From Deltaproteobacteria bacterium RIFOXYA12_FULL_61_11 (lineage in GTDB: Bacteria > Bdellovibrionota_F > JAHFAK01 > YA12-FULL-61-11): 7,362 nt of DNA. The stretch spans positions 1 through 7,362 of the forward strand of contig MGSU01000213.1 in the NCBI GenBank assembly GCA_001799195.1. Direction: 5' to 3'. The position numbers and the translations under genes were made by a program. The notes beneath the pieces were generated by a model. It was not told the origin of the DNA. It ran no database searches and saw only the letters and a list, made by a program, of their open reading frames with translations. How positions within the stretch are numbered: position 1 is the first letter of the stretch; each line of letters begins with the position of its first letter. Below, piece by piece: positions 3,760 to 6,960 of the stretch.

Positions 3760-3981
3760 ATGAAGACCGTTCTCGGCGGCCTCCATTCCCCGGAGGAGAG
3801 GCTTGTTCAACTTTTACGCACCCAACTCCCGAAAGATCTCACCATCGAGCTCAAACCCTATCTCGGCAACGAATACATTGTGAGTTATCGCGGCGTCCTC
3901 GAGCCAACCCATCGCAACGCCATCAGGGCTCATTTTAAGGACCAACACGGTATCATCCTCCACCTGTTGCCCCAGCGCTGA
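3760..3981 (+). CDS. Small protein of unknown function (73 aa)
   Basis: I do not recognise this family. The 73-aa product starts MKTVLGGLHSPEERL and ends HLLPQR. It has no signal peptide, membrane segment or cysteine, so it is probably cytoplasmic. By eye it folds as a helix (residues 10-23, PEERLVQLLRTQL), two strands around a turn (27-45, TIELKPYLGNEYIVSYRG), a helix (48-62, EPTHRNAIRAHFKDQ) and a final strand (65-70, IILHLL), a compact alpha-beta-beta-alpha-beta order. A good promoter, a well-spaced GAGG and this periodicity support a real gene. An in-frame GTG at 3745 would add five residues but lies upstream of the ribosome binding site. The next gene on the same strand starts 135 bp downstream, so co-transcription is possible. 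The size suggested an acyl carrier protein, but no DSL-type serine site is present. Confidence 0.72.
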   Translation: MKTVLGGLHSPEERLVQLLRTQLPKDLTIELKPYLGNEYIVSYRGVLEPTHRNAIRAHFKDQHGIILHLLPQR

Positions 3982-4040: not shown

Positions 4041-4103
4041 GTGCCTATGCTAGGAAAGGCTCCCCCGGTCTCGAGAGGCCGTGAGGGGTTGGGAGCGTGT
4101 TGC

Positions 4104-4116: not shown

Positions 4117-6960
4117 ATGAGGGACCTCCAGGACGAATTGACCACCCGGTACGGCCGTGGTTGCAAGCCTCGCGTGGAACGAATGCTGCGCGCCCTGAAC
4201 CTGGACGTGAGCTATTCCGAAGGGCAGGGCAATTGGCTCCAGGCAAGGGACTCCCATGACCGGCATTGGCGAGTCTTCGACGCTGCTGGAGGTTACGCGG
4301 CCAACGTGCTTGGGCATGCCCATCCCGGCATTCTGGAGGCCATGCGGCAGGCCGCCCATGCGACCCTTCCCTGTCATGTCCAAGGCTCGATCAGAGGAGC
4401 AGCCGCGCACCTCGCGGCCGACCTCGAAGTCCTGGTGGCGGCGGAAACCGGGATTCATGGTTGGATATCCCATTTCACCAATAGCGGTACGGAAGCGGTA
4501 GAGGCGGCGCTCAAACATGCGCTGCTCGTCAACAGAGCCAAGCGCGACAACCTCGGCCGTCGCATCCTCGAGAGTCTGATCGAGCTCGCGCAGATCTTCC
4601 AGGGGACCCACCCCGCTCATCTGGACGAAGAACTCGATTTGTATCTCGAAAACCGATCCAGGGCTCTCGCCTTGCCGGTGCCCACCTCTCTCTTCCAGGG
4701 GCTCGAGCAGGTCCGCGACGCCATGCTCGCCTTGCTCGACGTTCCGCCCCTGCTCGCCGCCTTCCAAGGCTCTTACCACGGCAAGACTCTCGGTGCCCTC
4801 GGGCTCACCTCGAATCCGGAACTCCGCCTTCCCTTCCTCTCCGCTCCGGAACCCCAACGGGCCTTCCTCCCCTTCGATGATGCCGAGAGTCTCGTTGCCT
4901 GGACCGAGAGGCAACGAGGGTCTCTCGTGCTGCCAATCCTGCGGGGGCACCACCTCGCCACGACCGAGGTCTTCCTGCCTCTCGTCGCCGCTTTCATCGT
5001 TGAACCGGTCCAGGGAGAAGGCGGGGTGCGTCCGGCCGGGGGCGACTTCCTGACCACCTTGCGCCGCTGTGCCGATGATCTACAGGCCTCTCTGATCCTC
5101 GACGAGGTGCAGACCGGATGCCGTCGCACCGGTCCCTTCCTGTGCAGCAGCGCCTTGGGTATCGTCGCCGATACGTATTGTCTCTCCAAGGGGTTGGGCG
5201 GTGGGTACGTCAAGCTCGGCGCGACTCTCTTTCATCCTCGGCACTACGACGACCGCTTCGGGTTTCTCCACAGCTCCACCTTCGCCGAGGACGAATTCTC
5301 CTCCACTGTCGGCCGTTACGTGCTCTCCCTGCTCGCTCCGGACGAACTCGGTACCCAGGTCACGGCGCGCGGCCTGGAGCTCCTGGCCGGCCTCCGGGAC
5401 CTGCAACAACGCTATCCCCTCCTGGTAGCCGGAATACGCGGCCGGGGGCTCCTCGTCGCTCTCGAATTCAGCGCGGATATCGCTCAACGGGTGTTCGAGT
5501 TCAAAGTATTCGATGACTGCGATTGTTTCGGTTACCTCCTCGCCGGCGCGCTTCTCCACCGCGAGGGGGTGCGGGTCATGCCCACCCTGTCCAGTCCGCG
5601 GACCCTCCGATTCGCCCCCAGCCTCCTGACCGATACCGAGGAGGTAGCGTGGCTGTTAGCCGCCCTCAAGCGCTTGTGCGAACACCTGGAGCGGCTCGAC
5701 CTCGACTACCTCCTCGGACAAGCCTATCGCGGCCATCGCCTCGGTCCGGCCACTCGCCTGACCTCCCCCCTCAGAAAGGTCCCCGGACTGCCGACGGCCG
5801 CCTTCCTCACACACCTGATCGACGAGAACCACATTCGCAGTTTCGCCGCTTCGCACCGCCTCCTCCCCTCCGGTCTGATCGAGCGCAAGCTGGACAAGGC
5901 CTCGGACCTCTTCGAATTCGGCCTGTATCACTCCTCCTCGGTGAACGGTGCAACGGGCAACAGCGTTCGCTTCCTGCTGCTCGGCATCCCGGTCCTGAGC
6001 AGTTCCATCAACGCCATGAGCAGGTCCGGACGCAACAACTTCATCGGAAAGATCCAGGCGGCCGTTACACTCGCGGTCTCCCACGGTGCGAGCACCATCG
6101 GACTCGGTCAATTCACCTCCATCGTCACCCACAACGGATTGCTCCTCGACCCACGTGGTGCGACCCTTACCACGGGAAACAGCTATACCGCATGGCTGGC
6201 GGTAGAGGCGACCCTGGGGGCTGCGCGCGAGCATCATGGGGACCTGCACCGCACCACCCTCGCCTGTATTGGGGCGGCGGGCAACATCATCGCCACCTGC
6301 GCGACCCTGCTTGCCGATCACGTCGGCCGGTTGATCCTCCTCCATCACACCCCTCCCGAGCGCAGCCCTAAGCTGCTCGAAGCCTTGTCCCTGCTGTTTC
6401 GGACGCTGTCCAGGGGTTCGGGGACCTCTCCCCTTGCTGCCGGGATTCGCGCTCTCGGACTGGACCCCGAGCTACTCCCCCCGGAGCAGGTGCCCATGCT
6501 GCTGCGACATCCCTCCCTGCGCGATCAGGTGATCGTTGGCAGCGACCTCCAGTTGCTCTCGCAAGCAGCGGTGGTCCTCACCGGCACCAATCAGACCACC
6601 CCGACGGTCCCGGCCGAACTCCTAGCCCCAGGGGCAGTGGTGGTCGATCTCGGGGTGCCTGCCAATCTGGCCCCGAACCTCGCCGCCCGTAGACCGGACC
6701 TGCATCTGCTCAGGGGAGGCCTGGCCGCGCTACCCCCGCAAGCCGATGGCAGACCCCAGGCCCTCGCCTGTCCGTTCCTCCCCTTGACAGCCGGAACGTG
6801 TTACGCCTGTTTGGCTGAGACACTGACCCTGGCGTTATCCGGGAATCCCCCGGGACGTTATCTTGGAACGCTCGATCCCTCCGGCGTTCTGGCGGTACGG
6901 GAACTCGCCCGTGCCCAGGGCTTCAGCCTGGCAGGATCCTTCAATGAAGAGGTGCGTTGA
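4117..6960 (+). CDS. Class III aminotransferase fused to acyl-ACP reductase-like domain; probable amine-forming enzyme
   Basis: The product is 947 aa from ATG 4117; residues here are counted from the in-frame GTG at 4081 (subtract 12). Residues about 25-535 are a fold-type I class III PLP aminotransferase: NSGTEAVEAALKHAL (134-148), SYHGKTLGALGLT (231-243), EPVQGEGGV (308-316), LDEVQTG (340-346, Asp341 to the PLP ring nitrogen) and LSKGLGGG (368-375, Lys370 as Schiff-base lysine). Residues about 572-959 match cyanobacterial AAR in order: AAFLTHL, GQFTSIV (676-682), TTGNSYTAW (697-705), a Rossmann loop GAAGNI (731-736), DLGVPANL (856-863), LRGG (877-880) and CYACLAET (907-914), where Cys910 aligns with the AAR acyl-enzyme cysteine. 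Inferred reaction: acyl-ACP or acyl-CoA plus NAD(P)H gives an aldehyde, then transamination gives a primary amine. PigE of prodiginine synthesis combines the same activities. Chain length, carrier and amino donor cannot be read here. The gene is intact and cytoplasmic, with no adjacent pathway genes. Confidence 0.88.
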   Translation: MRDLQDELTTRYGRGCKPRVERMLRALNLDVSYSEGQGNWLQARDSHDRHWRVFDAAGGYAANVLGHAHPGILEAMRQAAHATLPCHVQGSIRGAAAHLAADLEVLVAAETGIHGWISHFTNSGTEAVEAALKHALLVNRAKRDNLGRRILESLIELAQIFQGTHPAHLDEELDLYLENRSRALALPVPTSLFQGLEQVRDAMLALLDVPPLLAAFQGSYHGKTLGALGLTSNPELRLPFLSAPEPQRAFLPFDDAESLVAWTERQRGSLVLPILRGHHLATTEVFLPLVAAFIVEPVQGEGGVRPAGGDFLTTLRRCADDLQASLILDEVQTGCRRTGPFLCSSALGIVADTYCLSKGLGGGYVKLGATLFHPRHYDDRFGFLHSSTFAEDEFSSTVGRYVLSLLAPDELGTQVTARGLELLAGLRDLQQRYPLLVAGIRGRGLLVALEFSADIAQRVFEFKVFDDCDCFGYLLAGALLHREGVRVMPTLSSPRTLRFAPSLLTDTEEVAWLLAALKRLCEHLERLDLDYLLGQAYRGHRLGPATRLTSPLRKVPGLPTAAFLTHLIDENHIRSFAASHRLLPSGLIERKLDKASDLFEFGLYHSSSVNGATGNSVRFLLLGIPVLSSSINAMSRSGRNNFIGKIQAAVTLAVSHGASTIGLGQFTSIVTHNGLLLDPRGATLTTGNSYTAWLAVEATLGAAREHHGDLHRTTLACIGAAGNIIATCATLLADHVGRLILLHHTPPERSPKLLEALSLLFRTLSRGSGTSPLAAGIRALGLDPELLPPEQVPMLLRHPSLRDQVIVGSDLQLLSQAAVVLTGTNQTTPTVPAELLAPGAVVVDLGVPANLAPNLAARRPDLHLLRGGLAALPPQADGRPQALACPFLPLTAGTCYACLAETLTLALSGNPPGRYLGTLDPSGVLAVRELARAQGFSLAGSFNEEVR

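Follow-up and report, generated by a model that had tools for sequence, protein, structure and literature searches.

The window analysed here spans the whole of contig C213 (7,362 bases), which belongs to a genome of 4.64 Mb at 87% completeness, and it codes for a protein in which a class III aminotransferase is joined to an AAR-like domain. The question raised by this locus is whether such a protein would convert an acyl thioester to an amine and whether its domain order reflects a new and independent fusion, as an initial annotation of the sequence had suggested, or places it in a family that is already known.

Reading frame and domains of the fusion protein

The gene is a single uninterrupted frame starting with ATG and coding for 947 amino acids, with a G + C content of 0.70/0.48/0.75 at the three codon positions, a pattern found in coding genes. 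That one frame holds both domains is confirmed and far beyond chance. The description of the product as one chain with the class III aminotransferase first is borne out by this frame, by the Pfam match of the N-terminal half (Aminotran_3, PF00202, E = 2.4e-58, residues 29-519) and by matches of the C-terminal half to PigE and AAR. An alternative start, a GTG at position 4081, lies 12 codons upstream and would give 959 amino acids. The catalytic residues had been numbered from it as Lys370, Asp341 and Cys910; the residues exist, but they become Lys358, Asp329 and Cys898 when counted from the ATG (Table 1). In an alignment made by eye, the N-terminus of a fused relative at locus L064 (MTDSLSELYTRHCRP...) matches the ATG start of the fusion protein, and the ATG at 4117 appears to be the better candidate, the GTG being a possible but less likely one.

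Table 1. Features of the fusion gene, with residues numbered from the ATG
Feature	Position in the window	Strand	Evidence
Aminotransferase-AAR fusion gene, 947 aa	4117..6960	+	Frame, Pfam and NCBIfam matches; start by eye against L064
Class III aminotransferase domain, CrmG-like long form, residues 29-519	4201..5673	+	Pfam PF00202, CrmG match, tree
Asp329	5101..5103	+	Present in 31/31 aligned aminotransferases
Lys358, PLP Schiff-base lysine	5188..5190	+	Present in 31/31 aligned aminotransferases; PtTamH K340, CrmG K344
AAR-like acyl-thioester reductase domain, about residues 561-939	5797..6933	+	PigE and SeAAR matches; full-length alignment to relatives
GAAGNI nucleotide-binding loop, 719-724	6271..6288	+	Third Gly of GxxGxxG is Ile725
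DLGVPANL motif, 844-851	6646..6669	+	Aligned with SeAAR DGGYPKNL and PigE DVALPRDI
Cys898, putative acyl-accepting nucleophile	6808..6810	+	Aligned with SeAAR Cys294 and all AAR-type domains compared

The PLP lysine and the aspartate are conserved in every aminotransferase aligned, and Asp329 is presumably the ligand of the PLP pyridine nitrogen. Among solved structures, the aminotransferase half is best matched by CrmG, the caerulomycin transaminase (5DDS; E = 3.8e-57, residues 24-531), which shares its long-form clade but lacks a reductase domain. The published counterparts of Lys358 are K340 in the tambjamine enzyme PtTamH (PMC9594044) and K344 in CrmG. The lysine lies at position 358 in the fusion protein and 344 in CrmG, against 243-279 in most of those short-form relatives that lack N-terminal extensions, and it is only this position that separates the transaminase subfamilies, whereas the spacing from lysine to catalytic cysteine does not. 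Lys340 of TamH would thus fit the long form and not the short one. A scan of the genome contigs gave a single relative, which matches the aminotransferase half.

The C-terminal half has no match in a Pfam search of the protein, but it is recognized by the NCBIfam PigE model (E = 1.5e-22) and by the AAR model TIGR04058 (1.9e-9), and among solved structures by PigE (9.3e-11) and the Synechococcus AAR, SeAAR (6JZY; 1.8e-6). The catalytic cysteine of SeAAR, Cys294, aligns with Cys898, and each of the other 30 AAR-type domains in the comparison has this cysteine too. The two motifs reported earlier, GAAGNI and DLGVPANL, are both present. The half was also described as a canonical AAR-type reductase, which is too strong, since it scores 37 bits against an equivalog cut-off of 449.7 for TIGR04058 and the GxxGxxG nucleotide motif is incomplete (GAAGNII). 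SeAAR belongs to the same reductase superfamily, but it stands alone as a protein and is distant from this half in both score and tree. The fusion protein is likewise under the cut-off of the PigE model NF053554 (267 bits against 850). Single-sequence structure models of the C-terminal half and of the whole protein had a mean pLDDT of 37-38 and were set aside.

The third glycine of GxxGxxG is also absent in PigE-type proteins, which have Cys or Ala, and in the fused relative G068, which has Cys; since it varies across the wider family, the full motif was not treated as defining TamH-type fusions. A degenerate, inactive reductase half, leaving only a transaminase acting on aldehydes produced elsewhere, would be in line with the missing glycine, the low AAR score and a long branch in the AAR tree (2.01). 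This is nevertheless improbable, because the catalytic cysteine and the motifs GLGxFTSI, TTGNSYT and VPANL are retained, and PigE is active although it lacks the same glycine. Similarity to the cyanobacterial enzyme could also point to an alkane-pathway AAR feeding an aldehyde-deformylating oxygenase, with the transaminase being incidental, but the TIGR04058 score is far under its cut-off and no such oxygenase was found when sought in the 87%-complete genome, making this reading hardly credible.

TamH, PigE and the predicted reaction

The same domain order is known from PtTamH of Pseudoalteromonas tunicata (tambjamine YP1), a 941-aa transaminase-AAR fusion with the transaminase first that was purified and assayed in 2022 (PMC9594044). 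The purified enzyme converts C12 aldehyde and L-Glu to C12 amine and, together with its partner TamA and NADH, takes C12 acid through C12-acyl-ACP to C12 amine (dodecylamine), while C12-CoA is not accepted (PMC9594044). The fusion protein resembles PtTamH in having the transaminase first and the AAR-like reductase second, as well as in length. By published residue numbers only, the lysine is at 340 in PtTamH and 358 here, the catalytic cysteine at 887 and 898, and the distance between them 547 and 540. However, PtTamH has all three GxxGxxG glycines, whereas the fusion protein has Ile at the third, and TamH is clustered with the ligase-carrier protein TamA, a partner that the fusion gene does not have on its contig. 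PigE, the Serratia prodigiosin enzyme (4PPM), harbors the same two domain types, and thioester reduction followed by aldehyde transamination has been reported for it (PMC8341465). Its order is reversed, with the reductase N-terminal and the transaminase C-terminal, in agreement with the initial annotation.

Because the order and the reaction are both demonstrated in PtTamH and the catalytic residues of both halves are conserved, it is very likely, by analogy, that the protein is a TamH-type bifunctional enzyme, predicted to convert acyl-ACP to an aldehyde and then to a primary amine; the acyl-thioester-to-amine chemistry proposed from the sequence thus appears to be the best explanation. Cys898 of the C-terminal domain would receive the acyl chain delivered by an acyl carrier protein, a nicotinamide cofactor would reduce the resulting thioester and release the aldehyde, and the N-terminal PLP transaminase would convert the latter to a primary amine by means of Lys358, with L-Glu, for instance, as amino donor. 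The protein would probably form a dimer through its transaminase domain. The amine reading is favoured by the absence of any detected aldehyde-deformylating oxygenase in the genome and by the presence there of a carrier-ligase pair. On the other side are the lack of a carrier, ligase or pathway gene on the contig and the divergent AAR half with its lost glycine, a loss that weighs less since PigE, without that glycine, also reduces a thioester.

Distribution and descent of transaminase-first fusions

Transaminase-first AAR fusions were found in 19 other genomes or plasmids among those surveyed, including replicons of Photobacterium, Paraburkholderia, Leisingera, Rhodovulum, Haematobacter and Pseudorhodobacter and 13 genomes of two other phyla, and distant TamH relatives had already been noted by the PtTamH authors in Chitinimonas, Paucibacter and Streptomyces (PMC9594044). 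With these and PtTamH, the domain order cannot be regarded as new.

Trees were built from the AAR half, the transaminase half and both joined, PtTamH itself being outside the sequence set. In the AAR-half tree, the protein falls in a group of nine (99/92), all of them transaminase-first fusions. In the transaminase-half tree, these nine are joined by CrmG, which is unfused, and by a Streptomyces transaminase to form a group of eleven (100/100). The nine fusions also group together in the joined tree (100/100), where a grouping of the protein with PigE is rejected (p = 0.0002); in the AAR half alone, this grouping is close to rejection but short of it (p = 0.056). The AAR-half branch being long, common ancestry is argued from the concordance between the half-trees. 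The idea of an independent fusion had been put forward, in which a CrmG-like transaminase and an AAR would have been joined separately from TamH and by convergence, and it could draw on the unfused CrmG-like transaminases of the same clade and on the AAR half alone, which does not reject a position outside the other fusions (p = 0.145). With the same eight partners in both half-trees and the support of the joined tree, it is very improbable. Since these eight transaminase-first fusions accompany the protein whichever half is used, it is most likely a divergent, distant member of the already known TamH-type transaminase-reductase fusions.

The phylum of this genome is represented by one other genome in the comparison set, so that TamH-type fatty-amine synthases would be extended to a poorly sampled lineage (two genomes). 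The fusion family offers more candidates for biocatalysis, and does not reveal a new chemistry.

Genomic context here and in relatives

The neighbours of the fusion gene code for a topoisomerase, a PA14-domain protein and a partial CBM_11 protein, none of them obviously related to it, and no carrier, TamA-like ligase, polyketide or peptide synthase or other pathway gene is present on the 7,362-base contig. Mis-binning of this contig was considered and rejected, its G + C content and tetranucleotide profile being like those of the genome's other contigs (r = 0.96 with L080). Whether a 73-aa frame (3760-3981, + strand) that precedes the fusion gene is itself a gene is doubtful either way; Pfam gave no match for it, the genome holds no convincing second copy, and it is not a carrier protein.

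Unlinked to the fusion gene, a carrier gene and an acyl-AMP-ligase gene overlap each other on contig C174 of the same genome, and this ligase is nearer to the fusion-linked ligases (33-35%, E = 1e-85 to 1e-90) than to the genome's other ligases. A functional link between this pair and the fusion gene would be a guess; acyl-ACP might come from it or perhaps from fatty acid synthesis. Rather unlikely is a role of the fusion enzyme in general lipid metabolism, outside any natural-product cluster, in which acyl-ACP from the unlinked pair would yield long-chain alkylamines, possibly for membrane or envelope lipids.

In relatives, the fusion is more directly linked to carriers and ligases, which points to acyl-ACP as a probable substrate. 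For example, a ligase-carrier gene directly adjoins the fusion gene at L064, as TamA does TamH, ligase and carrier genes lie near it at L020, and a carrier gene is close to it at L071. At L067 (8556-13289), an acyl-AMP ligase, a carrier, a transaminase and an AAR are found in one frame of 1,578 aa, which would represent the whole fatty-acid-to-amine route in one protein. Together with this chain, the relatives suggest that fused fatty-acid-to-amine conversion is widespread, beyond tambjamine producers. At L049 and L068, the fusion gene is located within ketosynthase clusters. It is possible, though doubtful, that the substrate here is a specialised polyketide or similar carrier-bound chain rather than a plain fatty acid, the chemistry being unchanged: the transaminase half lies within the long CrmG-like clade, and the relatives in Photobacterium and in genome G245 have ketosynthase, carrier and ketoreductase genes around them, but the contig has no polyketide or peptide synthase gene and the relatives with linked ligases suggest free fatty acids.

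Further arrangements were observed, such as transaminase-AAR-ligase in Leisingera (L050:8575-12759) and ligase-transaminase-AAR at L073:9047-13327, as well as a protein without transaminase in which an AAR-like domain is followed by GAF domains (L072:8023-10560). Finally, in all three Rhodobacterales replicons examined (Rhodovulum, Haematobacter and Pseudorhodobacter; L051:8644-12089, L056:3125-7317 and L082:11599-15090), the transaminase-AAR gene adjoins a gene whose product has a VPLPA-CTERM-type sorting signal at its end. An exosortase was sought in the genome of the window and not found, and in Rhodovulum the exosortase gene xrtD lies about 4.5 kb from the transaminase-AAR gene. The sorting-signal neighbours raise the idea, worth testing, that a fatty amine could serve as an exosortase acceptor in Rhodobacterales.
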